Source of the DNA: a virus
Direction: 5' to 3' (one strand)
DNA: 29,892 nt
IMG/VR virus record: IMGVR_UViG_3300034096_000253
Location: 1-29,892 of that record
A model generated the notes under the pieces. It had not been told where the DNA came from and made no database searches. It worked only from the letters and a program-made list of their open reading frames with translations. Below, one piece after another: positions 3,462-29,892 of this stretch. Made by a program: the position numbers and the translations under genes. Position 1 is the first letter of the stretch. The number at the start of each line of letters is the position of its first letter.

Positions 3462-4487
3462 ATGGCGTACATCAGAAAGAGACGATCCGGCACCTATGAG
3501 ATCGTCATCAAACACCACACCCTGCCCCGCCCTATCCACTCCAGTGCCGATACGGAAGCGCAGGCAAAAGCCTGGGCGGAACGCATGGAGGCTGAAATTG
3601 CTGCCGGGACGCTGCCGCAAAGCTATTACATCGAAACCGTCGCCAGCCATTACACCGTGGCCAAATGGCTGGGCGAGTATGAACACTCTTCCAACCCTTC
3701 TGCCTCAGATAAGCCACTGCTGCCCATCATCAGCAAAGAAGTCGGCCACTGGCCCTTGAATCGCATCAATCAGAAGCACCTCGCCGACTGGGTGACGGCC
3801 ATGAAATCCCGACGACTGACGCCGGGTAGCATTAAAAAGCGGGTCGGCGCGTTGGCCAGGGCGCTGGATATTGCCGTGCATCGCGAAATCATCACCATCA
3901 ATGTCGTGCGGTCACTGCCCCGCAATTATTCCGCGTACACCCCTGCCGATGGTGAGCGGGTGACAGATAGTGCCCGTGATCGTCGCCTGGAACCGGGCGA
4001 GGAAGGGAGGTTGCGGGAGGTTATGGGCGGTCAGCCGGATATGTTGCGGCTTTTTACGCTGGCGCTTGAGACTGCAATGCGGCTTTCTGAGCTGTACACG
4101 CTGACCTGGAGTCAGGTGGATCTCGGTAAGCGCACGATATTTCTGGATCAAACCAAGAACGGCGACAAGCGACAGGTGCCGCTGTCATCCGTGGCATTGG
4201 AATTACTGAAAGACGGCGGCGAGGGTCTGGTGTTTCCGTTCTTCCATGACGGCGACCGGCGCAAGACGACGCTACGGGTGGGTTTTTACTGGGCGCAGAT
4301 TGCCAAGAAAGCTGGCTGTGATGCCCTGCATTTTCACGATCTCAGGCATGAGGCCACTTGCCGACTGTTTGAGCGCACTCAGTTGAGCGATCTTCAGATC
4401 AGCCTCATCACGGGCCACCGCGATCCGAGAATGTTGAGGCGTTACAGCAATCTGCGCGGGAGCGATCTGGCCGCGCAGTTGTGGTGA
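3462..4487 (+). CDS. int: Tyrosine-type site-specific integrase
   Basis: A 341-aa phage integrase that would recombine attP with the tRNA-Cys target. The start ATG has AGGAGG at 3449-3454. An N-terminal arm-binding region (residues 1-50, basic), a core-binding SAM-like domain (about 55-160) and a catalytic domain (about 175-341) are in the usual order. Catalytic residues visible are Arg207 (ETAMRLSEL), Lys232 (TKNGDKR), His292 and Arg295 (HFHDLRH), His319 (TGHRD) and the nucleophile Tyr328 (LRRYSN). All are present, so the enzyme looks intact. It is transcribed away from attP and meets the late operon head-on with no gap. After integration it would lie directly downstream of the restored tRNA-Cys, in the same direction. 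Confidence 0.96.
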   Translation: MAYIRKRRSGTYEIVIKHHTLPRPIHSSADTEAQAKAWAERMEAEIAAGTLPQSYYIETVASHYTVAKWLGEYEHSSNPSASDKPLLPIISKEVGHWPLNRINQKHLADWVTAMKSRRLTPGSIKKRVGALARALDIAVHREIITINVVRSLPRNYSAYTPADGERVTDSARDRRLEPGEEGRLREVMGGQPDMLRLFTLALETAMRLSELYTLTWSQVDLGKRTIFLDQTKNGDKRQVPLSSVALELLKDGGEGLVFPFFHDGDRRKTTLRVGFYWAQIAKKAGCDALHFHDLRHEATCRLFERTQLSDLQISLITGHRDPRMLRRYSNLRGSDLAAQLW

Positions 4488-14166: not shown

Positions 14167-17100
14167 TCAGGCTCCTACGTTAAAGCGTTGAGTGCGTTCC
14201 ATCTTGCTCAGTCGGGCTTCCATGCCGGACAGCTTGTCGATGATTTGCGGGTTGGCATTCGATTGCGTGACGACGACGGCCCGCATCTCGGCCTTGAGTT
14301 CGGCAATGGCCTGAACGATCTTGCCGTCATTGCCACCGCGCAGGGCATCGCGGGTTTCGTCGGCGGTCATCACCTGGGCGGGGCGCTCGAAGCGGACGAT
14401 CTCCGGGCCTTGTTCACCCACCAGGGCGAGACCCGCTTGGGCATAGCCGCCCTTGGCATATTGCGGAATGGGGATGGCACTCAGCCCGTTGCCCATGAGG
14501 ATGCTGTTGAGGGCTTCCAGCTGCGCCTGGTTGAGCCGGGTTCCGGCTTGCAGCGCGGCAAGTTGATCCTGCGCCATCTTCAGGGCGGCGTCGGCTTGTT
14601 CCTGCGCTTTCTGCTTGGCTTCCTCGGCTTGCTTGGCGGCTTCAATGCGTGTGAGTTCAGCCAGTTCAGCCAGCTTGCCCAGATCGCGTTCAGCCGCTTC
14701 CCGTGCCGCCCGCATGGCTTCGTTCTTGTTCGGGTCGGATAGGTCAGCGATGGCCTGTTGAGTCTGCTTCTGCGCTTCCTCAATCTGCTTCTGTGCGGCC
14801 TCGCGGATCGCGTCGGTGGCCTTCTGGCTGGCCTCGCGCATGGCGTCGAGGTTGTCCTGCTGGGATTTACGGATTGCGTCGAGTTGATCCGCCTGAATCT
14901 CGCGGATGGCATCCAGGCGCTCGGCTTGGCTCTCGCGCAGCGCATCCAGCCGCTCGGATTGGCTTTCGCGGATGGCATCCAGCTTTTCGGATTGCAACTC
15001 GCGCAGCTTGTCCATCTCTTCAGCCTGCGCTTCCCGCAGCAGGTCGATACGAGACTGGATGGAATCGGGATCGGGGGCTGACATGCCGCCAATAGCGGAC
15101 ATGGCATTCTTCACGGCATCAAAGGTGTTGGCATACTGCGTGCCGGAGCCGTAATACTGCTTGCTGGCTTCAAGGTAGGCATCCGACGCACCGGACAGCT
15201 TCTGCATCGCATCGGCATCGCCGCCTTGGGCGCGGGCGAGTAAATCCTGATACTGCCGCTGGGCTTCGGCCAGACGTTGTTCAGGTGACAACGGGCTGTT
15301 GCCACCTAAAGCCATGCCGCGCACATAGTCCTGGATGCCTTTGATCGCGTCCCGCAGTTTGTTAGCCGCATCGAGTTCATCGCCCAGCGCCTTCAGTTGA
15401 GCATCGTGGGCTTTTTGCAGCGCCTTCTGCTCCTGGTCGAACTGCTTCTGAGTCAGCTTGTTGGCCGCATCAAAGGCTTTCTGTTCGGCCTTGATCTCGG
15501 CATCGAATTGCTTCTGCGTCAGCTTGTTGGCCGCGTCGAATTGCTTCTGCTGTGACTTGATGGCGGCTTCGTCACTCTTCGACTGCGCCTTGATAGCCGC
15601 TTCCAGCCGGTCATTCTCGGCTTCGATAGCGGCGTCGGTCGCGGCGTTAATCGCGTCGATCTGCAGCTGCAAGGCGGCGTTGAGCTTCTCGGTCTCGGCG
15701 GCGATGTAGGCTTGCTGTGCTTCCTGAATGGCGGCGACTTCGGCGTTGTATTTCGCCATCACGGCTTGCTGGGCGGTATTCAGCAGACCCACCTCGACAC
15801 TGACATCCCGCGCTCGGCCATCGGACAGGCTGGTGATGTAGGTGTCGATAGCGCCGAAGGCGTTGTTGCGGTCAGTGCTGGCAAGTCCGAAGACGGCTTG
15901 CGGGCCTTGAAGCTGGGCAATCTGGCTGGCGATAGACTTCTGCAAGTCCAGCACGGACTGGAGGCGTTGCTGGGCCTGCTGGATGGTCTGGACGATGCTG
16001 TTGAAGATATCTTCCAGCGTCGAACCCATGGCTAGACGGGCATCATCGATGATGGCCTGCTTCTCCAGGGCGACGCGGGCGATCTCGGCGGCTTTATCCA
16101 TGCCCTCCTTGGCCATGATCTGCGCCAGTTCCTCATTCAGCGCATTGAGTTCGCTGTTGAGGTTGGACCAGCGGGCAATCTTGGTCTTTAAGGTCTTGAT
16201 GACTTCCTTGTTTTGCTTCCTGGGTGCCTTGGCCAGTTCGTCGGCCAGCTTGCGCTCCCAGTACGCCACCTCTTCATTCATCTGCGCCACGCCACCGAAG
16301 CGGGCCTTGATGCGCTTCATCAGGCGATTGCGCTCGGCAAACAAAGGATCACGCGCATCGCTGGCGGCATTGCCAATGGCGTCGATACGGGCTTGCGAGT
16401 CGCCGCTGACGCCCCCGATCAGCTTGCCGAAGTCGGTGCCGACCTGTTTGATCTGGTCGCTGATGGCTTTGAATGGGTCGAGGATGGCGTCGTATTTGTC
16501 GCGGATGGCTTGCGCTTCGTTGGCCACCTGGGCAAAGGACTCGGACAGGGCGATCATCTGGCCGAAGAGTGTCTTCCCGGCGTCGGTGCTTTGGTCAATG
16601 CCACGAATCATGGCGGCGAAACCTTCCTTACTGGATGGCATGACTTGCCCGAACTTGCCGAACTGCTCGGCCAGGACGCGCACATCGCCCGCGTAACGGT
16701 CAGCCTCGGAGACAAAGTTCTCGTTGAAGGCTTCCATCGCGGCATTGAAGGCATCTAGCCCACCCGCCGCGTTAATCATGGTGCGGTCGAGGTTGCTGTC
16801 ACCGATGCCAGCGGTCTTCATTTTGTCACTGGCCTGGATCAGCTTTTTGTAAGCCGCAATAATGTCGTCCGCCTTGCCAGTCAGTTCGTTGACGTACTGA
16901 CGAACCCCTACCGCAAGCGTTTTTTGTCCGGCCAGCGTCTGCCGCACGATTTCTGCCGCAACATCGCCCTGCTTATTGATGATCTGGGTGTACTTGATAG
17001 CAGACAACCCAAGGCGCTCCAGCTCTCCCTGAGCGCGATTAACACCCTCGGCCAAACGCCAAAATGTCTGTGCGTATCCTTCGCCTACTTGCTGGAATGA

Positions 17101-20100
17101 CTCAAGCCCAGGCATGAATGCCGCTGCCATCTTGTCGGACAAATTGCTCATGATGGCGGCGAGTTGTTTCTCCATATCATCGCCGCTCAGTCCTTTCAGC
17201 GAGATAATGCCTAGATCGACAACGAAGGTGCTTAAACGCTTCTTAAAATCATCCGCCGTCAGGCCGAACGTCTTGCCGCCTTCAACCAACGCAGCTGAAA
17301 TACCAATGATGGTTCGTTCAATCTGCTTGCCGGGGCCGGTAATGCCATCCAGCAGCATCTTCGAATCAACCCCGTTGCGGTTGTTGCTGACATAGGCCAC
17401 ACCAGAATCCATGCCCATCTTGAAGATGTCCGACAATAGTGCTTTTGGAAACGCGATACCCCAGTCAGAAATTGATTTGTTTTCGTTAATACCGGCATAG
17501 CCTTTGCCGCCATCAGCCATGCCCGCAGCAATGCTTCGGAAGTTCAGCAATGCGGCATTGGTAGTGCCTTTAATGGAAAGCTCAATATTCTCCAGCGCCC
17601 TGAGCATGGCGGCGGAATATGTCAGATCGTTGCTGCTGTTGTCTCGAATAATCTCAAGGGATTTGGCAATGGACTCCGACTTTGCGTTGGCATCGCCCAG
17701 CACCGTTCCGGTCCCGGCCAGCTTTTGCCTGTTTTCGGAAGAGTTTGGGTCATTGCGGGTACCTCCGCCGCCTCCTCCAAAAGCGCCGATGGCTGATCCG
17801 ATCAGGCTTGCCACCATACCGGCCATGGCGATCATTCTCGGTATGGCTGAATAGGGGTCGCCGCTGGCCTGATTCAGAATGGCCTGAATACCCAGCGCAA
17901 TGTTCGTGACTTGGGTCGCCATTTGCAGTGCCTGTTGAGCCACAGCCATGGCTTTGTATCCAGAAGTGCCGTCCTCGTACATGTTCCGCATGGCGCCGGC
18001 TACATTGCCGAGCATGTCAAACGTCGCGCCGAGGGTTTCTAGCTGGCCTTTCTGCTCTGCGCCGAGCTTTTTGGCTTCATCGTCACCCGACTTGGCAATC
18101 GTAGCCTTTCTGTCTCGGTCAATTTGCTTGAGTCGCTTGTCATACAGCGCCATGGCTTCGGATACGCCAGCCAGCGACTTGCCCATCCTGCCAAAGGCTT
18201 CCTCATAGCTTTTGGCGTACTCAATCATGCGTTGGGCCGCTTCGTCCCATGCTTGATTGAGCCGAAGTTGTTCATCAGCGACCGACTGCTCCTGACTCTT
18301 CTTCTGCGATCCCGTCAGTTCATCCACCGCCCCTTTCAGCGCCTGGGTCGAAAGGATGTATTGCTGCATCCGCGCAATCTGATCCGGCGATATCAGTTCC
18401 GGCAGGTTGCCGGTGGACTGATAGTAGTCATTCAGCAGGGCCAGCTGGTCGGCATTGGCCCCCGCCTGCTTGGCGGCGGTCAGGCGGTCGAGAATGTCGG
18501 CTTGGCGCTGATAAGCCTGGATGATGCCGTCGATGGCGGTGACTTCGTTGCGCTTGAGATCGGCGGATTGCTTGGCAAATTCGTTGACCTTGCCGGCGGC
18601 GGTGATTTCTGCTTGGGCGCGGTTTTCGGCCAGCAACAGCAAGTCGTTATCGGCAGCACGGATGGCCTGCTTCAGCTTGAATTGATCGTCTATGCTGACG
18701 TTGTACTTGTCAGCCTGGGCCAGTTCAGCCTGATAGGCTTGCTTCTTGGCTTCCAGTGCCTGCTGCTGGGCGTCGTATTCGGCCCGCACCATCTCCAGCG
18801 CCTGGGCGTTGTATTCGGCGGCTTTGGCTTGCGCGGCTTCGATAATCCTGGCCCTGTCCTCGTAGGTCTTGGCCCCGGCCAGTTGTTCAGCGGTCAGACG
18901 GGCAGCGGCTTCGCGCTCCTGATCCATCGCCGCCAGTCGGGTCTTGATCTGCTCGACCTGAACCTTGGCGTATTCCTCGGCCCGTTTCACCTGATCGTCC
19001 TGATGGGTTTTCAGGCGATTGAACGCGGTGCCGAGTTCATCAGCCTGGTCTTTGGCGGAGGTGAAGGACTCACCCTGCGCGCCGAGGACATTCTGCCACT
19101 TCTCATACAGCGCCCCGACCGAGACGACATAGTTCTGCGTCTCTTTGAACGGCGGCACGCCACCGAATTTCTGCACGTTGCCGGGGCCAGCGTTGTACGC
19201 TGCCGCCGCCAGTCGCAAGGATTTGAACTGCTTTTCCTGCTGGGCCAGGTACATGACCCCGCCCTTGATGTTGTCGTTCAGGTCGTTGAAATTGACGCCC
19301 AACTGCTTGGCGGTGCCCGGCATCAACTGCATGACACCCCGCGCACCCACAGCGGACTTGGCCAACTGGTTGAAGCCGCTTTCCTGCTGGGCAATCGCCA
19401 GCGCAAAGGCGGGATCGACCTTGTAGGCTTTGGCCGTCTCGATGACAATTTGAGCGACGGCTTTTTGCTTTTCAGAGAGCTTGGTCATGGCCAGCGCGGC
19501 ATCATTGGCCCCGCGTTTTACGCCGTCGAAGAATTGTTTTTGCTGCTGTTTCCTAGACTCCCATTCTTCCTTGCTGATGGCCTCGTTCACATCTGGCTTT
19601 GAAGCTGACGCCGCATTGATTGCAGCTAACTCCTGTTCTGATGGTGTGCCAAAGATGCCACGAGCAGACCGATTGGCATTCATCTCTTCAATGGCTTTTG
19701 CCCGCTTGGTGAGCTTGTCAAAGCCTTCTATTATGAGCGCCCATCCGCTGACAACCTTGCTGATTGGCGTCATCAACGTGTCCATGTTTTTGGCAATCAA
19801 AGACAGCGATTCAGCCAGTTCTTTTGATGAGCCAGAGGCTTGATCGGCCTTGCCTATATAACTGGTAAAGGCGTTTTGGATCTGCTGAAACGCGCCAGAT
19901 ATCGTGACCGGCATCTGGGTATATTCACGCTTGATGGCGTCCGACTGCGAAAGGATGGCATTGACGACCTTATCGGCAGTCAATTCACCCTGCGCGGCCA
20001 TTTCTCTCAACGCGCCGATCGGTACATTCAGCCCATCGGCCAGTGCTTTGGCGAGACGTGGCGAGTTCTCCATCATCGAGTTGAACTCGTCGCCCCGAAG

Positions 20101-20634
20101 GACGCCGGAGCCGATGGCCTGGGCAAACTGGAGGATGCCCGCCGCTGCACTGGAGGCATCGGCACCGGAGATGCGGATGGACTTACCGACCAGATCGGTG
20201 ATGGCCAGGGTGTCGGCTTGGGATCGGCCCAGATCACGCATCGACGTGGCCAGCCGCGAATAAAGCTGCACGGTTTCCGCCAGCGGCGTCATGTTGCGCT
20301 GACTGATTTCAAACAGTTGTGACTGGGCAGCGGCAAACTCTTGGGTGGACCCCGAGACGAGTTTGAGCTTGGCGACGATGCCGGAATAGGCATCGGCGGT
20401 CTGAATCATTTGACGGGCTGAAAAGGCCACTCCCAATCCCGCCAAGGCGCGGCCCGCAGTGGTTGCCGCGTTGCCAAGTCCCTGAGTAGCTTTTTCAATG
20501 CCGCCGAGACTCTGCGCGGCTTTTTTTGAACTATTGCCGACCTGCTCGATATTCTTGACGACCTTACCAATGTTGGCTTCGGCATTTCTGCCATCTGCCG
20601 TCAGGGTAATCCCAAGGTGCATCGATGAGTTCAT
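14167..20634 (-). CDS. Tape measure protein with an internal lytic transglycosylase domain
   Basis: A 2155-aa protein, the longest gene here, setting tail length and acting in DNA entry. Residues about 60-270 (FSARQMIQTADAYSGIVAKL, GSGVLRGDEFNSMMENSPRLAKAL) match the 'tape measure domain' family. Residues 390-500 are an SLT (soluble lytic transglycosylase) domain: catalytic Glu418 in AIAQQESGFN, GVMQLMPGTA at 433-442 and AAYNAGPG at 478-485. It would open peptidoglycan during ejection. A hydrophobic Gly-rich patch near 940-1000 may span the inner membrane. The C-terminal third is long coiled coil with 11-residue repeats. Full length suggests an unusually long tail. The start at 20634 follows GTAGGG; an ATG at 20622 is an alternative. 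Confidence 0.95.
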   Translation of the reverse strand: MNSSMHLGITLTADGRNAEANIGKVVKNIEQVGNSSKKAAQSLGGIEKATQGLGNAATTAGRALAGLGVAFSARQMIQTADAYSGIVAKLKLVSGSTQEFAAAQSQLFEISQRNMTPLAETVQLYSRLATSMRDLGRSQADTLAITDLVGKSIRISGADASSAAAGILQFAQAIGSGVLRGDEFNSMMENSPRLAKALADGLNVPIGALREMAAQGELTADKVVNAILSQSDAIKREYTQMPVTISGAFQQIQNAFTSYIGKADQASGSSKELAESLSLIAKNMDTLMTPISKVVSGWALIIEGFDKLTKRAKAIEEMNANRSARGIFGTPSEQELAAINAASASKPDVNEAISKEEWESRKQQQKQFFDGVKRGANDAALAMTKLSEKQKAVAQIVIETAKAYKVDPAFALAIAQQESGFNQLAKSAVGARGVMQLMPGTAKQLGVNFNDLNDNIKGGVMYLAQQEKQFKSLRLAAAAYNAGPGNVQKFGGVPPFKETQNYVVSVGALYEKWQNVLGAQGESFTSAKDQADELGTAFNRLKTHQDDQVKRAEEYAKVQVEQIKTRLAAMDQEREAAARLTAEQLAGAKTYEDRARIIEAAQAKAAEYNAQALEMVRAEYDAQQQALEAKKQAYQAELAQADKYNVSIDDQFKLKQAIRAADNDLLLLAENRAQAEITAAGKVNEFAKQSADLKRNEVTAIDGIIQAYQRQADILDRLTAAKQAGANADQLALLNDYYQSTGNLPELISPDQIARMQQYILSTQALKGAVDELTGSQKKSQEQSVADEQLRLNQAWDEAAQRMIEYAKSYEEAFGRMGKSLAGVSEAMALYDKRLKQIDRDRKATIAKSGDDEAKKLGAEQKGQLETLGATFDMLGNVAGAMRNMYEDGTSGYKAMAVAQQALQMATQVTNIALGIQAILNQASGDPYSAIPRMIAMAGMVASLIGSAIGAFGGGGGGTRNDPNSSENRQKLAGTGTVLGDANAKSESIAKSLEIIRDNSSNDLTYSAAMLRALENIELSIKGTTNAALLNFRSIAAGMADGGKGYAGINENKSISDWGIAFPKALLSDIFKMGMDSGVAYVSNNRNGVDSKMLLDGITGPGKQIERTIIGISAALVEGGKTFGLTADDFKKRLSTFVVDLGIISLKGLSGDDMEKQLAAIMSNLSDKMAAAFMPGLESFQQVGEGYAQTFWRLAEGVNRAQGELERLGLSAIKYTQIINKQGDVAAEIVRQTLAGQKTLAVGVRQYVNELTGKADDIIAAYKKLIQASDKMKTAGIGDSNLDRTMINAAGGLDAFNAAMEAFNENFVSEADRYAGDVRVLAEQFGKFGQVMPSSKEGFAAMIRGIDQSTDAGKTLFGQMIALSESFAQVANEAQAIRDKYDAILDPFKAISDQIKQVGTDFGKLIGGVSGDSQARIDAIGNAASDARDPLFAERNRLMKRIKARFGGVAQMNEEVAYWERKLADELAKAPRKQNKEVIKTLKTKIARWSNLNSELNALNEELAQIMAKEGMDKAAEIARVALEKQAIIDDARLAMGSTLEDIFNSIVQTIQQAQQRLQSVLDLQKSIASQIAQLQGPQAVFGLASTDRNNAFGAIDTYITSLSDGRARDVSVEVGLLNTAQQAVMAKYNAEVAAIQEAQQAYIAAETEKLNAALQLQIDAINAATDAAIEAENDRLEAAIKAQSKSDEAAIKSQQKQFDAANKLTQKQFDAEIKAEQKAFDAANKLTQKQFDQEQKALQKAHDAQLKALGDELDAANKLRDAIKGIQDYVRGMALGGNSPLSPEQRLAEAQRQYQDLLARAQGGDADAMQKLSGASDAYLEASKQYYGSGTQYANTFDAVKNAMSAIGGMSAPDPDSIQSRIDLLREAQAEEMDKLRELQSEKLDAIRESQSERLDALRESQAERLDAIREIQADQLDAIRKSQQDNLDAMREASQKATDAIREAAQKQIEEAQKQTQQAIADLSDPNKNEAMRAAREAAERDLGKLAELAELTRIEAAKQAEEAKQKAQEQADAALKMAQDQLAALQAGTRLNQAQLEALNSILMGNGLSAIPIPQYAKGGYAQAGLALVGEQGPEIVRFERPAQVMTADETRDALRGGNDGKIVQAIAELKAEMRAVVVTQSNANPQIIDKLSGMEARLSKMERTQRFNVGA
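14791..15019 (-). repeat. 33-bp periodic coding repeats (11-residue, LDAIRES type)
   Basis: Within the tape measure gene, about seven consecutive 11-residue units of the form LDAIRESQxER are encoded by imperfect 33-bp repeats (limits approximate). Eleven residues make three helical turns, so this is a hendecad coiled coil. The repeats are protein-driven: they carry many silent differences, and they are not a separate DNA element. Confidence 0.7.
15443..15536 (-). repeat. 66-bp spaced coding repeat in the tape measure gene
   Basis: Two near-identical 28-bp segments (15443-15470 and 15509-15536) lie exactly 66 bp apart and differ at two bases. They encode two copies of the 22-residue unit containing FDAANKLTQKQFD. 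This is again a multiple of 11 residues and shows recent internal duplication of the coiled-coil region. Confidence 0.7.
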
Positions 20635-23920: not shown

Positions 23921-25813
23921 TTAAGCGCCGAGGTTCTTGTAACCCGCACGCCATTCGTTGGCGGCGACGCCGTAATCCATGCGGACTTTCCAGCGCACGG
24001 CATCGGTGAGGAACTCTTCCTCTTGGGCGATGTAGGGCGACTGCTGTCCATCCAGGAAGGCAATTTCAACCACCGGGGCAATGGACGGATCAGCCAACAG
24101 ATACCAAGCGGTCGAGCTATTGGCATCGAGCAGCGGATGAGAAAGCACCTGCAACGGACTCCAGCCGCTGATGATGTTTTTCTTCAACTGCGCGGTCGTG
24201 TCGGTGTTGTAAGTGGACTCGATCACGGTGCGGGCGTGGTCTTCCTTGCCGACCGGAACCAGCAACAGGCGCGGGTCAAACTCGACGTAATCGACGCCAG
24301 AGGCATCACGCTGGGTCCGCATCGCAGCGCGAGCTGCGCCTAGGGTCGCCACCGAAATGGCGCTGCCGGTGCCCTGGTAGTTGCTGTGTTGGGTGCTGAA
24401 CAGCGCGTTGCCGTCAGACATGTTGCCGTTAGCGGTGAGGACGCCGATGACATCATTGTTGACGGTTCTGGCGGCGGCTTGGCCCAGCATGGAAGCCATG
24501 CGGGTCAGTCCGTTCAGGTCGTCATTGATAATCATCTGACGTGTGACCTGGACATAACGGCCCTTGGTGCTGGCCGTCAACTGCTCGCGCTCTTCGCTAA
24601 AAGTGCCTTGGGTGTACTCAGCGCCTTCGACGATGGTGGACAAGCTGGAGAAGCTGCCCAGCTTCAGCATGTTGATGGTCTTGAAATCACTCACGCTGGA
24701 GGCCAGTGCAATCTGACGCCAGATTTGCGGCACGACCTGATACGCGTTCATCAGGGATTTGTTGGCAACATCCGCCAGCAACAGCGGGAAGTCACTGGTG
24801 GAATGACCGCGCAGTACCATGCCGGCAATTTCGCTGCGGCTCATGCCGGTGGTCTTGTGGCCTTTGAATGACAAGGCGCGGGAGGCCATTTCATGCAGGC
24901 TCAGGCCTCTGAACTCGTTGCTGCGGTCGTCTTCACCCAGACCGACGCGATGCGCCAAGGCGCTGACGGCACCGGCACGGAATTTCTCTTCGGATGTCAG
25001 ACCGGCTTCGATATGCACCGGCGCTGACATTTCATCAACGGATTTGCTCCACATACGCATAACCTCTGCTTGCGCGTCTTCCAGAGACACGTCTGAATTG
25101 ATGAGCTTGTCAGCCACGGCATCGCCCAACTTGGCCATGCGGACTGATTCGCGGATACCGCTGACGCGGCTGCGTTCTGCCTTCAATACCTGGGCGCGAA
25201 TTTCTTCTGCGTTGATCGGGCTTTCTTGCAGTTCTTCAGATACCGGCGCTTCGTCGTCTGCCGGGATTTCATTCGGTTCGGACATAGCCGTACTCCGGTT
25301 GGTTAGTAAATCGAGGGGGTTAAAGTCGGTGTCTTCTTCGGAACGCCCAAAGCCGACGCTGTTATCTGCCGGAACACTGGTAACAGTGACTTCCAGCGGA
25401 GACCACCGCGTGGCGCGGTAGGTGTCTTTGCTGATTTCCGTGAGGTCATCGATGCGGTAGCCAATGCTGACGTTCCGGCGAATGCCGTCGATCACGTCTT
25501 GCATGACTTCTTCACCCAGTGCGGAACGGCTAAAGCGAATTGTGGCTTCCAGTCTTTGCTGATGGACGCGAGCGCCCTCAACCACGCCGATCTGTTTGGT
25601 CGGGTCGTGATCCAGCAGCACAGGTGCCCCATCGCGCAGGCGGTCCATGTTGATGGCGGTATCGGTGTGGTCCAGAATTTCAGTCCCCCACCAGCGATCA
25701 ACCGGCGCTTCACTGCTGACCGGAATGGTGAAAGTGCGGGATTCCAGATCAGGCACGCTGTCGAACTTGAGTTCGCGGAATTGCAGGCCGTTGGGTTGTT
25801 TACGGGTTGGCAT
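23921..25813 (-). CDS. Prohead protease - major capsid fusion protein
   Basis: A 630-aa protein from ATG 25813, chosen because GAGGAGG lies 6 bases upstream and the ATG overlaps the portal stop by 14 bases; the longer frame up to 25861 only reads through the portal gene. Residues about 10-160 are an HK97-type prohead serine protease: His69 in PVLLDHD, Ser116 in RRNVSIGYR and Glu141 in PLEVTVTSVPAD. Residues about 165-290 form an acidic, helical region, likely the scaffold. Residues about 300-630 are a Mu gpT/HK97-fold capsid (SLMNAYQVVPQIWRQIA, STIVEGAEYTQGTFSEEREQ, DPRLLLVPVGKEDHARTV, VRWKVRMDYGVAANEWRAGYKN). Self-cleavage would release the capsid. Confidence 0.93.
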   Translation of the reverse strand: MPTRKQPNGLQFRELKFDSVPDLESRTFTIPVSSEAPVDRWWGTEILDHTDTAINMDRLRDGAPVLLDHDPTKQIGVVEGARVHQQRLEATIRFSRSALGEEVMQDVIDGIRRNVSIGYRIDDLTEISKDTYRATRWSPLEVTVTSVPADNSVGFGRSEEDTDFNPLDLLTNRSTAMSEPNEIPADDEAPVSEELQESPINAEEIRAQVLKAERSRVSGIRESVRMAKLGDAVADKLINSDVSLEDAQAEVMRMWSKSVDEMSAPVHIEAGLTSEEKFRAGAVSALAHRVGLGEDDRSNEFRGLSLHEMASRALSFKGHKTTGMSRSEIAGMVLRGHSTSDFPLLLADVANKSLMNAYQVVPQIWRQIALASSVSDFKTINMLKLGSFSSLSTIVEGAEYTQGTFSEEREQLTASTKGRYVQVTRQMIINDDLNGLTRMASMLGQAAARTVNNDVIGVLTANGNMSDGNALFSTQHSNYQGTGSAISVATLGAARAAMRTQRDASGVDYVEFDPRLLLVPVGKEDHARTVIESTYNTDTTAQLKKNIISGWSPLQVLSHPLLDANSSTAWYLLADPSIAPVVEIAFLDGQQSPYIAQEEEFLTDAVRWKVRMDYGVAANEWRAGYKNLGA

Positions 25814-27272
25814 CGGTCGCCTCCTCATTGTCATCGGGTAATGCCGATGGGGTGGGAACATCCTGCCGGTAATCGGATTCGACCTTGAGGCCAGCCGCGT
25901 CCAGTTTGGCCAGGTATTCGGCTTGTTCAGCCAGGACAGAATCGGGGTCGTAGCCTTGCGAGCGGATCGCTTCCGGCAAGCTGATAAAGCCGGAACGGAC
26001 AGCGGTTTGCAGCGCCTTCCATTCCTTGGCGGGGTCTACAACGGTGCGCGCCGGAGGGGTCCACTCCACGCTCATGTCGTCAATCTTAAAACCGGCATAC
26101 TCAGGCGATGCACTGATCATCTCTTTGAACCAGCCAAAGACGCCGCCACAAAAAACCGGGATAAACAGATTCCACTGCCACGCATCAATGTTGCGGCCCA
26201 TGTCGTGATGACCCATGCGGGCAGAACTGAAATTGACGGTGGAGAGGTTGCCGGTCAGTGCTTCGTAGGTAATGCCAAGACCCGACGCGACCGAGCGCAA
26301 GATCCACTCACGAAACGCGGGGTCATCATTGGCGGGGGGCGGGCTGTTGAACTGCACGTTCTGTCCTGGCTTGAGCAGGTACATGGTCCCCGGCTGCAAG
26401 TCAGGCAGTTCGCTTTCAAGCTCGTCGCCAAATGCCTGGGGGTCGTCACTGCTGATAAATCCGGCAAACAGGGCTGACAGTTGCACACGCTTGAGCGTGC
26501 CGTCGTCGTAAAGACCAAGGTCATAGAGGGTGCGGACAACGGGTGCCAGCCAGGACACGCCACGATCTTGGCCGGGGCGATCTTTGCGGTAGAGGTGAAT
26601 GATTTCTGAGGCCGGTACGCGAGTCGTTTCGGCCATCCAGCGCAGCATGTTGACGCTAAAATCGCCCGGATGACGCCGATACAGGTGATAGGCAACGCGA
26701 CGACCCAACGCATCAAACTCGATGCCGTTATGAATCGAGTTACCCGTCTCGGGTGTCAGCGTGTCTTCATCGGCCAGCAGGTCTGGTTCAAGAATCTGAA
26801 TCTGGAACGGCAGTGGCAGGTTGTCTTCCAAGCGCCGAGGCCGCATCCGAATCAGCACTTCGCCGGATTCGACCAGGCACCGCATGGCCAAGGCTTGCAA
26901 GCCATAGAAGTCCAACATGCCATCTGCATCGATGGCGCTGGTTTCCATGTGTCTTTGCCACAAGGCTTGCGCCTGACGGGTGCGCAATTGCGAACCGGCC
27001 TTTAATTGGGCGCGTATGCCATAGCCGACCGAGTTGTTGACAATGACATTGACGCCTTTGGCAGCCCAGGAGTTGTTGCGGACCAGATCCCGTGCTCGAT
27101 TCCGAATCGTTGCGGTATGAATGATCGCGGCATTGGCATCAGTGGCCGGGGTCAACCAGCCTGACATGCGGGCCGTCTTGGAGGCCGCGTCGTAGCGGCG
27201 AACCTCGGTCGTCGGACGCGGCGGGGCCACCTTATCGGCCACCACCTTGACGAAATCAATCACGGCACTCAT
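25800..27272 (-). CDS. Portal protein, lambda gpB family
   Basis: A 490-aa portal that forms the dodecameric DNA gate of the head. I start at ATG 27272, which overlaps the gpW stop (ATGA); the longer frame to 27299 would begin with TTG. Motifs of the lambda portal family are clear: ARDLVRNNSWAAKGVNVIVNNSVGYGI near the N-terminus, EPDLLADED, EIIHLYRKDRPGQDRGVSWLAPVVRTL, then LQPGTMYLLKPGQNVQFNSPPPAN and GITYEALTGNLSTVNFSSARMG near residue 340. Length is close to lambda gpB (533 aa). No internal protease-like Nu3/C gene follows, because that role is in the fused capsid gene. Confidence 0.96.
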   Translation of the reverse strand: MSAVIDFVKVVADKVAPPRPTTEVRRYDAASKTARMSGWLTPATDANAAIIHTATIRNRARDLVRNNSWAAKGVNVIVNNSVGYGIRAQLKAGSQLRTRQAQALWQRHMETSAIDADGMLDFYGLQALAMRCLVESGEVLIRMRPRRLEDNLPLPFQIQILEPDLLADEDTLTPETGNSIHNGIEFDALGRRVAYHLYRRHPGDFSVNMLRWMAETTRVPASEIIHLYRKDRPGQDRGVSWLAPVVRTLYDLGLYDDGTLKRVQLSALFAGFISSDDPQAFGDELESELPDLQPGTMYLLKPGQNVQFNSPPPANDDPAFREWILRSVASGLGITYEALTGNLSTVNFSSARMGHHDMGRNIDAWQWNLFIPVFCGGVFGWFKEMISASPEYAGFKIDDMSVEWTPPARTVVDPAKEWKALQTAVRSGFISLPEAIRSQGYDPDSVLAEQAEYLAKLDAAGLKVESDYRQDVPTPSALPDDNEEATDANP

Positions 27273-27478
27273 AGCCCGCTGCTCGTCAGCGGACGCCAAG
27301 CGCGGCCACGGGCCGTTGCGGGCAAGGCGACACCCAACTCGGCCTTCATCTGGTCGCGCAGCTTGGTCAGTGCCTCCAGTGATTGATACACCACCACCCG
27401 CCCGTCGATTTCAACGCGCAGGGTCCCGGAAGCGATCGCCGCCTCAATGGTGTCAAGCTGGGTTTGGGTGTATGCCAT
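27269..27478 (-). CDS. Head-to-tail joining protein gpW
   Basis: A 69-aa protein with the gpW layout: MAYTQTQLDTIEAAIASG, a hairpin LRVEIDGRVVVYQS and a helix LEALTKLRDQMKAEL, with a basic tail. Lambda gpW (68 aa) has the same helix-hairpin-helix order ([23 protein letters not shown]) and stabilises packaged DNA below the portal. It sits directly upstream of the portal gene as in lambda and overlaps it. The large terminase that usually precedes it is absent. Confidence 0.88.
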   Translation of the reverse strand: MAYTQTQLDTIEAAIASGTLRVEIDGRVVVYQSLEALTKLRDQMKAELGVALPATARGRAWRPLTSSGL

Positions 27479-27525: not shown

Positions 27526-27816
27526 TTACAGAATCGCGGAGGATTTGCGGGCGTTATGGACGGTTTGCCGGGTCACGCCGAGACGGGCTGATATTTCAGC
27601 AGGCGTCAGTCCCTTGCTGGCCAATTCGGCAATGCGGGCCTGCCTGACCAGGTGAGCGCGACGGGCGATATAGACTTCATCACCGCCGAACTTGACGCGC
27701 CATGCCTGTATTTTTGCGCGAACTTCTGACACGACGCCTTCAGCCTGGGCGGCTTGCAGGGTGTCGCAGATCATGCTTTCCAGCGCGTCTATCGGATCAG
27801 CCACGGTCCTTTTCAT
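27526..27816 (-). CDS. Mor/C-type transcription regulator-like protein
   Basis: A 96-aa protein starting MKRTVADPIDALESMICDTL. The segment WRVKFGGDEVYIARRAHLVRQARIAELASKGLTPAEISARLGVTRQTVHNARK has the 'FGG..VYI.R' strand of Mor-family activators followed by a helix-turn-helix (AEISARLGVTRQTVHN). In phage Mu, Mor activates the middle promoter. Here the gene lies inside the late operon, between TraR and gpW, and overlaps TraR by 20 bases. It could act on the late promoter at 29660-29713 or on early genes. A small terminase subunit with a similar HTH is an alternative. Confidence 0.75.
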   Translation of the reverse strand: MKRTVADPIDALESMICDTLQAAQAEGVVSEVRAKIQAWRVKFGGDEVYIARRAHLVRQARIAELASKGLTPAEISARLGVTRQTVHNARKSSAIL

Positions 27817-28215: not shown

Positions 28216-28333
28216 TGTTCTGCTCCGTATCCATTTCACAAGTGAGGTGAGCCATGAGTCCTGACTGTCCGATAGCCTCGATGGTGAGAGTGTTGCCATA
28301 GCCTGCGTCCGGGTGGTTGATTAGGGCGGGTTT
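28208..28333 (-). other. Possible -1 frameshift extension of the o-spanin-like gene
   Basis: The o-spanin frame ends ...TCA AAC CCG CCC TAA. The heptamer AAACCCG (28333-28327) is in slippery X-XXY-YYZ phase. A one-base back-slip opens a 39-codon extension, beginning ALINHPDAGYGNTLTIEAIG and ending at TGA 28208, which overlaps the next ATG (28215). The extension has protein-like codons and no start codon of its own nearby. It could instead be a separate gene with an odd start, or a frameshift mutation. Confidence 0.35.
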
Positions 28334-28623
28334 GAACTGACAGCCGCAGCCGGTTTGAGCAAGGATCGCGCCCGCACATAGCCCCGCAACAGCGTGTCGC
28401 CGCAGTCGTTGGCCGTCACTTTGTCGCCTTGAATATCGAGCAGGCAGTCGGTGCCGATGGGCGGCATCACCAAGGTCGGGCAGGCTTTGGTTGCGGGTAA
28501 CTTGAGATTCGGCGCGATCTGCACCGGGGCGCAGGCGGCCAATGCAAGGGCGATGACAAAGACGACTAAAAAAAGTAGGTACCCGACCACCTCGGCCATC
28601 ATTTGGTGATAGGGGTCTTTCAC
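28321..28623 (-). CDS. o-spanin-like lipoprotein
   Basis: A 100-aa protein from GTG 28623, which overlaps the previous TGA (GTGA); an ATG at 28602 is an alternative. The longer frame to 28743 lies over the endolysin gene and is rejected. Residues about 10-31 form a signal peptide (VVGYLLFLVVFVIALALAAC) with the lipobox LAAC at Cys31. The mature part is Pro-rich (LPATKACPTLVMPP, LLKPAAAVSS) with further cysteines, as in Rz1-type outer-membrane lipoproteins, though longer than lambda Rz1. It would anchor in the outer membrane and pair with the next gene product at lysis. Confidence 0.72.
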   Translation of the reverse strand: MKDPYHQMMAEVVGYLLFLVVFVIALALAACAPVQIAPNLKLPATKACPTLVMPPIGTDCLLDIQGDKVTANDCGDTLLRGYVRARSLLKPAAAVSSNPP

Positions 28624-28718
28624 GTCAGCATCCAATACAGGAGGCCGGACAGGCCCAAGGCAAAGACGGCTGAAATCAGCACCCCGATCATGACTTGAGT
28701 GAGGAACTCGTCTTTCAT
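28620..28718 (-). CDS. 32-aa single-span membrane peptide in the lysis cassette
   Basis: Starts MKDEFLTQVMIGVLISAVFA. Its ATG overlaps the endolysin stop (ATGA) and its TGA overlaps the next GTG (GTGA), so it is locked into the lysis gene chain. After a charged N-terminus, residues 9-31 are one hydrophobic helix. It could be a small holin, a pinholin partner or antiholin. It was found only by its position and hydrophobicity. Confidence 0.7.
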   Translation of the reverse strand: MKDEFLTQVMIGVLISAVFALGLSGLLYWMLT

Positions 28719-29146
28719 GACAGGTACAACTTCCTTTCCGCATTGCGGCGGCGGACCAAGCCGGGAAGGGTTTTGCCGGCGGCTTTTACCCACAACAGAA
28801 AGGATGCAGCTGCGCGGAGCCGGTGACCGGCTTTGTGATGTCGCAGGACAGAGGATTTGCCAAAGCCACCCAGGCCGATGTTGTAGGCGAGGCTGACCAT
28901 CGCGGCAAATTCATTCTCGGTGGTGGGCGTTTCGCCCAAGGCTTGCTGGACGCCGCGCTCAAAGCGGGTGAGATCGTTGGCTAGGTAGGCGTCGGCTTGG
29001 GCTTGCGTGATGCGCTGACCGACGCGGACCTCCGGCCCCGTGTGGCCATAGCCGATGGTCGGGATTCCTGCTGGACAGCGATAGCCGATCAGCCGTAAGC
29101 CTTCAAAGTCCTTGATGAGGTCCAGTCCGGCGCGGTTAATTTTCAT
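28715..29146 (-). CDS. Endolysin, GH24 phage lysozyme
   Basis: A 143-aa T4/P22-type lysozyme that cleaves the glycan strand of peptidoglycan. The catalytic E-x8-(D/C)-x5-T pattern is exact: Glu15 (KDFEGLRL), Cys24 (YRCPAG) and Thr30 (GIPTIGYGH). The second domain has FAAMVSLAYNIGLGGFGKSSVLRHH and LPGLVRRRNAER, the usual end of the family. There is no N-terminal signal-anchor, so it should be cytoplasmic and need a holin. It overlaps the holin candidate gene by 11 bases and the small membrane peptide gene by 3 bases. Confidence 0.95.
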   Translation of the reverse strand: MKINRAGLDLIKDFEGLRLIGYRCPAGIPTIGYGHTGPEVRVGQRITQAQADAYLANDLTRFERGVQQALGETPTTENEFAAMVSLAYNIGLGGFGKSSVLRHHKAGHRLRAAASFLLWVKAAGKTLPGLVRRRNAERKLYLS

Positions 29147-29372
29147 CGCGGCCTTGTTTCAGCACGTCCTGAATGTCAGCGGTCGTGTCGAGGATTTCTT
29201 CGGATTCCTTAGGAGTCAGCCCGCTGCCAGTGGTACGCCAAGCGACGATGGCCATAACCACCATCGCAACACCCAGCAACACGTGACGTTCGGTCCCGGT
29301 TTCCATTGCGGTAATCGCTGACATGGCTAACCACATCACCGCTTGCCAATTCATGCCTGTGTTGGTGGTCAT
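29136..29372 (-). CDS. Holin candidate
   Basis: A 78-aa protein encoded directly before the endolysin. It has two hydrophobic segments: a weaker one at 8-22 (WQAVMWLAMSAITAM) and a clear one at 30-46 (HVLLGVAMVVMAIVAWR), with a charged C-terminal tail (TPKESEEILDTTADIQDVLKQGRDEN). Two spans with a charged cytoplasmic tail fit a class II holin, which would release the cytoplasmic lysozyme. The start overlaps the previous gene as ATGA. No family motif is recognised. Confidence 0.65.
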   Translation of the reverse strand: MTTNTGMNWQAVMWLAMSAITAMETGTERHVLLGVAMVVMAIVAWRTTGSGLTPKESEEILDTTADIQDVLKQGRDEN

Positions 29373-29632
29373 GGCTTGCTCTCAATCTGGCCGGTTGCCT
29401 TGGCGACCCAGAGAACTGTGTGAATCACCCAGTCCACCACGACATCGGCCAGGTCGCCCGCCAATTCCTTGATGAGGTCCGCCGCCCGTTGGTGCTTGAT
29501 GGCGTTGCTGATGGCTTCGTTGGATTGCCCGACGATGAAGTTCTTGATGCGTTCGACGTTGGCCTTGTCGAGCGCCTGGTCGGTGATGGCCCCGATGACC
29601 AGCATTGCGGCCCATTTTAGAAATGCGTTCAT
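29369..29632 (-). CDS. Small helical protein, first gene of the late operon
   Basis: An 87-aa protein starting MNAFLKWAAMLVIGAITDQA, with GAGGG about 7 bases before the ATG. The first 15 residues are moderately hydrophobic and residues about 65-80 (VVVDWVIHTVLWVAKA) are a second amphipathic or hydrophobic stretch. It may be membrane-associated, for example an antiholin or holin partner. It is not a recognised family. It is the first gene after the promoter at 29660-29686, with a very short leader. Confidence 0.68.
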   Translation of the reverse strand: MNAFLKWAAMLVIGAITDQALDKANVERIKNFIVGQSNEAISNAIKHQRAADLIKELAGDLADVVVDWVIHTVLWVAKATGQIESKP

Positions 29633-29657
29633 GCGGAAACCCTCGTGAGATTTCCGC
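29633..29657. repeat. Inverted repeat in the late operon leader
   Basis: GCGGAAA (29633-29639) and TTTCCGC (29651-29657) flank 11 bases that include the Shine-Dalgarno of the first late gene, and the repeat ends next to its ATG. The predicted transcription start falls inside the right arm, so the repeat is more likely a DNA-level site than a full RNA hairpin. Confidence 0.4.
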
Positions 29658-29659
29658 CG

Positions 29660-29686
29660 ATTATACTACATGTTGTGGTTTGTCAA
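29660..29686 (-). promoter_or_regulatory. Probable sigma70-type promoter of the late operon
   Basis: Read on the - strand, TTGACA (29686-29681) and TATAAT (29665-29660) are perfect -35 and -10 hexamers separated by 15 bases, two shorter than optimal. The start would be near 29653, about 20 bases before the ATG of the first late gene. The short spacer suggests that a bound regulator improves or blocks the promoter. It is the only clear promoter I found for the long - strand operon. Confidence 0.7.
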
Positions 29687-29713
29687 TATGTAAAGCACTA
29701 CATGTTGTGGTTT
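29665..29713. promoter_or_regulatory. Two 17-bp operator-like direct repeats (NrdR-box-like)
   Basis: ACTACATGTTGTGGTTT occurs exactly at 29665-29681 and 29697-29713, centres 32 bp apart (about three helical turns, same DNA face). One copy lies between -35 and -10, the other upstream of -35. Each contains CTACATGTTG, whose reverse CAACATGTAG matches the NrdR-box core CwAtATaTwG at 8 of 10 positions, with C/G in place of the T/A at the two others. NrdR boxes also come in pairs 31-32 bp apart. A phage repressor operator is the alternative. Confidence 0.6.
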
Positions 29714-29892
29714 AGCGGGATAGAATCTTGTTGGTTGGCTTGTCGTTCAGAATGGCCTTGGCCAGTTCCTCACCGATGATGGCCATGCCCTTCTGCTGCA
29801 TGACCTGATCGCCAATCTCGTCAAGGAACACGCGGCGGCGATAGCCTCTGGTTCGCCGGACAAACATCAGCATGGGCTTGAGTGATGAACCG
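29712..29892 (-). CDS. Hypothetical protein, C-terminal part only
   Basis: A frame open from the right edge of the window, ending at TAA 29712; 59 C-terminal residues are visible. They include FVRRTRGYRRRVFLDEIGDQ and IIGEELAKAILNDKPTNKILSR: a basic segment followed by a helix. The stop codon lies inside the upstream 17-bp repeat. The gene runs in the same direction as the late operon but ends before its promoter. I do not recognise the family, and nothing shows it to be a terminase. Confidence 0.6.
   Translation of the reverse strand, partial: GSSLKPMLMFVRRTRGYRRRVFLDEIGDQVMQQKGMAIIGEELAKAILNDKPTNKILSR

Follow-up and report, generated by a model that had tools for sequence, protein, structure and literature searches.

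A pair of NrdR-type boxes over a lysis/late promoter of a temperate phage: a probable link to host nucleotide sensing

Introduction

Ribonucleotide reductase (RNR) promoters regulated by NrdR (nrdAB, nrdHIEF, nrdDG and nrdJ) share an arrangement in which two 16-bp imperfect palindromes (ACACWAYATRTWGTGT) lie three helical turns apart, one of them over the core promoter. NrdR is present in most bacteria. The protein binds DNA with dATP plus ATP (PMC9110341), and this nucleotide binding, the conserved C/G pairs and overlap with the RNA polymerase site are among the defining features of its boxes (PMC12051234; PMC9110341). NrdR proteins from three phyla bind box pairs with spacers of 14-17 bp, the best being 15-17 bp (PMC12051234). 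A target other than an RNR gene has been described in Pseudomonas aeruginosa, where NrdR activates topA through a single box (PMC4409342).

The late promoters of phages are commonly controlled by the phage's own regulators, such as Mu Mor/C, P2 Ogr and lambda Q, which couple late genes to the stage of infection. Outside a few model phages, the coupling of late genes to DNA replication is not understood. When phage SpSL1 infects pneumococcus, the strongest upregulation among host genes, by a wide margin, is that of operons with NrdR sites (PMC6755750). NrdR targets thus open during lytic growth in that system, although the genes concerned are those of the host and the sections of that study that bear on the question do not describe such boxes in the phage. 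In the open-licence literature that we searched, we found no account of late phage genes preceded by NrdR boxes.

Here we describe a box pair of the RNR type in a 29.9-kb piece of a temperate phage (the window, meaning the whole stretch analysed), where it covers a promoter for lysis and probably head/tail genes.

Results

One box of the pair fills the spacer of a consensus promoter

The 17-mer ACTACATGTTGTGGTTT is present on the plus strand as two exact copies (29665-29681 and 29697-29713) with a start-to-start distance of 32 bp. When up to 3 mismatches are allowed it has 3 matches in the whole window, versus 0.06 expected from shuffled sequence. In the NrdR register the repeats correspond to 16-bp boxes separated by 16 bp, and on the minus strand the order is distal box, TTGACA (29686-29681), 15 bp and TATAAT (29665-29660). 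A preliminary description of the window had claimed two identical 17-bp repeats 32 bp apart, one of them inside a perfect-hexamer promoter with a 15-bp spacer, and both claims held. The elements are as follows.

29695..29710, minus strand: distal NrdR box CCACAACATGTAGTGC, scoring 19 of 20 against ACACWAYATRTWGTGT; the corresponding place in relatives is occupied by CCACAACATCTAGTGC, ACACAACATATAGTGC or ACACAATATGTTGTGT.
29681..29686, minus strand: -35 hexamer TTGACA, read from the sequence and kept in all box-bearing relatives.
29663..29678, minus strand: proximal NrdR box CCACAACATGTAGTAT, between -35 and -10, scoring 19 of 20 and kept in 8 promoter variants.
29660..29665, minus strand: -10 hexamer TATAAT, read from the sequence, 15 bp from the -35; TACAAT in the relatives L093 and L151.

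All of these lie within an intergenic region of 79 bp (29633-29711), whose minus strand reads as CCACAACATGTAGTGC, 16 bp containing TTGACA, CCACAACATGTAGTAT running into TATAAT, a leader and then, at 29632, the start codon (ATG) of an 87-aa gene. The proximal box fills the 15-bp promoter spacer and overlaps the -10 hexamer, so that overlap with the RNA polymerase site is met. Both boxes also meet the sequence definition of an NrdR box (a palindrome of 16 bp in which a conserved C and a conserved G lie nine positions from each other, with the core CWAYATRTWG), their core being CAACATGTAG, and the 16 bp between them satisfies the requirement for about three helical turns with a spacer of 14-17 bp. 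On a weighting of the consensus positions in ACACWAYATRTWGTGT that is our own, the pair scores 38/40, while the next best pair in the window at 31-33 bp spacing scores 29.5 and the maximum over 60 Markov-1 simulated windows is 30.5. An RNR promoter from Methylophaga, scored in the same way, equals the phage pair (38/40).

The promoter reads into a lysis cassette

The late genes of the phage are on the minus strand, starting at the right end of the window and running leftwards; an integrase gene (3462-4487) and a RecT-like gene lie towards the left, the latter at the left end. The genes around the promoter are listed in the order in which they would be transcribed.

29712..29892, minus strand: 3' end of the upstream gene (270 aa in L001), whose stop codon adjoins the distal box.
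29369..29632, minus strand: first gene of the lysis/late operon, an open reading frame of 87 aa with no assigned function; a homologue about 48% identical lies behind the box pair in L093/L151.
29136..29372, minus strand: holin-like protein of 78 aa (PHROG 3428 holin, E 2.9e-4).
28715..29146, minus strand: endolysin, a phage lysozyme (PF00959, E 7.5e-44; PHROG 7 endolysin).
28321..28743, minus strand: probable spanin-like lipoprotein gene, inferred from position and a Cys motif, without a Pfam match.
27526..27816, minus strand: 96-aa helix-turn-helix (HTH) protein (PHROG 836 late transcriptional activator, E 4.9e-6; HTH_23, E 1.1e-7).
25800..27299, minus strand: portal protein, the first head/tail gene downstream (PF05136, E 7e-103).

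The promoter reads into the holin/lysozyme cassette, and from the close packing of the genes we infer that it probably drives the head/tail genes behind the cassette as well. In relatives the upstream gene comes after the terminase large subunit. Since the upstream gene (and in relatives the terminase genes too) is on the same strand, the promoter is best described as an internal lysis/late promoter that may not be the only late one, a refinement of the earlier label of phage late promoter. The label Mor-like given to the HTH protein also needs refining: its gene belongs to the operon that the promoter heads, and the product matches PHROG 836 and Pfam HTH_23 without a Pfam Mor match. Domain searches of the window and relatives found no NrdR or ATP-cone domain in these phages, so that any NrdR acting on the boxes would have to come from the host.

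Promoter design is conserved while box sequences drift

Relatives were gathered by way of the 87-aa protein and the upstream protein. The box-bearing relatives provide 8 promoter variants, every one with both boxes, 32-bp spacing (16 bp between boxes), TTGACA and a 15-bp promoter spacer, so that the pair sits on a promoter in each of them; the inter-box sequence and the upstream gene vary. The boxes themselves take the forms CCACAACATGTAGT, CCACAACATCTAGT, ACACAACATATAGT, CCACAATATGTAGT, CCACAGCATGTAGT and CCACAACATGTATT, and the two copies within a relative differ from each other, yet both remain near the NrdR consensus at fixed spacing. In L093/L151, which combine ACACAATATGTTGTGT with ACACAATATGTAGTAC, the design is kept despite the low identity of the first gene. 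Four more distant relatives (L032-L035, 87-aa protein 76-80% identical) have the gene in other surroundings and no boxes; that they do without boxes counts against the NrdR explanation. No cultured phage with the 87-aa gene was found.

The same pair occurs at bacterial and archaeal RNR genes

The preliminary description had proposed looking for the 17-mer upstream of nrd genes in the host. The host is unidentified, thus its own nrd boxes cannot be read. We scanned 84,980 bacterial and archaeal genomes with the phage-derived pair (CCACAAYATRTAGT twice, 31-33 bp apart). Eleven loci matched, 8 of them at genes that start with the ATP-cone signature of ribonucleotide reductases; these near-identical pairs come from several phyla (Clostridia, Methylophaga, a chlamydial bacterium, an alphaproteobacterium, a woesearchaeote, which is an archaeon, and others). 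The clostridial nrdD-like promoter (L039) has TTGACA-17-TATAAT with the proximal box in the spacer, the same TTGACA-box-TATAAT design as the phage promoter, whose spacer is 15 bp. The remaining 3 loci comprise one near a tRNA and two (L040, L047) in a single Ruminococcus bromii genome, which are away from RNR genes and apparently beside mobile-element genes, one near a guanylate-kinase-like gene.

A host was sought in two ways. Relatives of the 87-aa protein were not found in the 84,980 genomes, and a portal-based search of 369 Gammaproteobacteria, the likely host class, gave only distant relatives (no more than 43% identical). A tRNA search for an attachment site in the window and relatives found none. 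NrdR-sized ATP-cone proteins are usual in Gammaproteobacteria, and the best pairs at gammaproteobacterial RNR genes inspected directly are at 31-32 bp with ACACAAGATCTTGTGC-type boxes. The strict pair pattern matched 6 of the 369 gammaproteobacterial genomes with only 1 site at an RNR gene, thus a match to the pattern is not proof on its own.

Box pairs recur in unrelated viruses

A scan of 2.9 million viral contigs gave at least 119 matches to the consensus pair with 32-bp spacing, versus 23 for the same boxes at 27 bp, which is out of helical phase, and 5 for the reversed pattern. The in-phase arrangement is therefore at least 5 times commoner than the 27-bp control. Location outside genes, judged by long open reading frames, was no more frequent in the 32-bp set (86%) than in the control (100%) and does not distinguish them, and so the enrichment in counts alone is used as evidence. 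Since the 27-bp control shows a background, some of the viral matches may not be real sites.

The 117 loci examined represent 78 unrelated surroundings. Genes directly behind the pairs include portals (L052, L070, L166, each just after a terminase gene), terminase small subunits (L123/L134/L139, L111, L082), a scaffold (L091), tail fibre genes (L058/L156) and, in a few cases, genes of nucleotide metabolism (NrdI, dUTPase). In the three portal contigs, which are related to each other (L052:2464, L070:1907, L166:1023), the pair lies between the terminase and portal genes, and about 10 bp at most separate the second box from the portal start codon. The Microbacterium phages BonaeVitae and Lunatic, with portals about 46% identical to that of L166, have no boxes before their portals, thus the linkage is not general to that portal family.

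Box pairs are also present in cultured streptococcal phages, with scores of 37.5-39.5 of 40. These 32-bp pairs (S. agalactiae Javan37, L250:1870-1917, 37.5; S. thermophilus CHPC663, L251:1848-1895, 39.5) precede a small PHROG 3773 gene that adjoins an antirepressor/cro module. An unrelated 64-kb virus has an exact CCACAACATGTAGT pair at 31 bp (L005:9789-9834) before a small gene of unassigned function.

Discussion

The sequence of the boxes, their 32-bp phasing, their position over the -35 and -10 hexamers, their conservation and their identity with box pairs at bacterial RNR genes are shown by the data. The identification as NrdR boxes is strong, while binding by NrdR, the direction of control and the host remain unproven. 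We consider it likely, in the absence of binding or expression data, that a temperate phage uses an NrdR-box pair as its lysis/late operator, with host NrdR repressing at high dATP and releasing the promoter when replication drains the pool. In the proposed mechanism NrdR with dATP and ATP bound would form a tetramer on both boxes, bending the DNA and blocking RNA polymerase, so that the lysis genes and the morphogenesis genes downstream would stay low while dATP is plentiful (in lysogeny and early infection). Phage replication would then drain dATP, NrdR would leave the DNA and the promoter would open, tying late expression to phage DNA synthesis as it proceeds, with no need for a sensor encoded by the phage. 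Induction of the NrdR regulon by SpSL1 (PMC6755750) offers published support for the release step, by analogy from another system.

NrdR is favoured because sequence, spacing, promoter geometry, drift within the NrdR consensus, co-occurrence at RNR genes and recurrence in unrelated viruses all point to it. The preliminary description had inferred NrdR boxes from resemblance, and this is now supported on each of these counts, without binding data; its further inference, that late genes or lysis timing are tied to the host nucleotide pool through NrdR, is plausible and fits the SpSL1 result (PMC6755750), with neither binding nor host shown.

The locus departs from each of the described systems. 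It does not meet the definition of an RNR regulon, control of a ribonucleotide reductase or nrdR gene, since holin, lysozyme and portal genes lie downstream. It resembles topA in having a target other than an RNR gene (PMC4409342), but has paired boxes over the core promoter in place of a single activating box. With late promoters run by phage activators it would share a coupling of late genes to the stage of infection, and the distant late-activator-like HTH protein recalls them; here, however, the operator is of the type read by a nucleotide-sensing repressor of the host, and both hexamers are intact. The Mu Mor/C arrangement, an activator site upstream of a promoter without a good -35, is not met, as the -35 and -10 are consensus and the box is inside the spacer; the evidence for a Mor-family activator in this phage is confined to the PHROG 836 match (E 5e-6).

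The alternative that survives best, though we judge it unlikely, is that the pair serves as operator for a regulator made by the phage itself, such as the 96-aa HTH protein or the S24-type repressor, whose geometry is the same by coincidence; the preliminary description had allowed for this. In its favour are the general role of phage regulators at late promoters and the HTH gene, which belongs to the same operon, is present in box-bearing members of this phage group and was not found in box-less ones. Against it, the same pair is at bacterial RNR genes, the HTH protein is not encoded in the examined DNA of unrelated box-bearing viruses, a position between -35 and -10 is unusual for an activator, and the two 46-47 kb relatives have a single box pair per genome, unlike a repressor that controls itself. 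The S24 repressor was set aside as the binder, its region in relatives having repeats of a different sequence. The possibility that the HTH protein also acts at this promoter, as a co-regulator, is not excluded.

Less probable still, and in our view very unlikely, NrdR may bind while the pair has a role other than the timing of late genes, either activating the promoter or acting as a decoy that titrates NrdR away from RNR genes. Activation has the topA precedent (PMC4409342), and derepression of RNR would itself aid phage replication. However, two boxes in RNR-like phase over a promoter fit a repressing arrangement, one site per genome could titrate only after replication, and in every box-bearing relative the pair lies on a promoter. 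Chance or mechanical duplication without a regulatory role would account for the identity of the two 17-mers in the window, as expected of a recent duplication, but is strongly disfavoured by relatives whose copies diverge from each other near the consensus at fixed spacing and by simulated windows that never reach the pair score.

If timing by NrdR is correct, the link between replication and late genes is the host's own dNTP sensor, requiring no phage protein and following the same rule as ribonucleotide reductase control; the NrdR regulon would extend beyond RNR genes, and the time of lysis could respond to drugs or states that alter dATP. The proposal is open to direct test, for which cultured phages that carry box pairs, Streptococcus thermophilus phage CHPC663 among them, would also serve. 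A bolder reading, which we regard as slightly more apt to be wrong than right, is that many unrelated tailed phages have independently put host NrdR boxes on late or packaging genes, making the dATP sensor a general switch that reports that phage DNA is being made and sets late transcription and lysis timing.

Two observations concern gene content. The 46-47 kb relatives (G002 and G003, 46.5 and 47.0 kb) encode an S24-type repressor, a DnaB helicase, a gpA-type terminase and a MazG-like or PRA-PH-like nucleotide pyrophosphohydrolase; the last (L206:12935-13291 and L208:13900-14289), present in both, could shift nucleotide pools. The window itself encodes a tape-measure-like protein of 2155 aa (14167-20634) with long runs of short charged repeats (ESQSERLDALRESQAERLDA).
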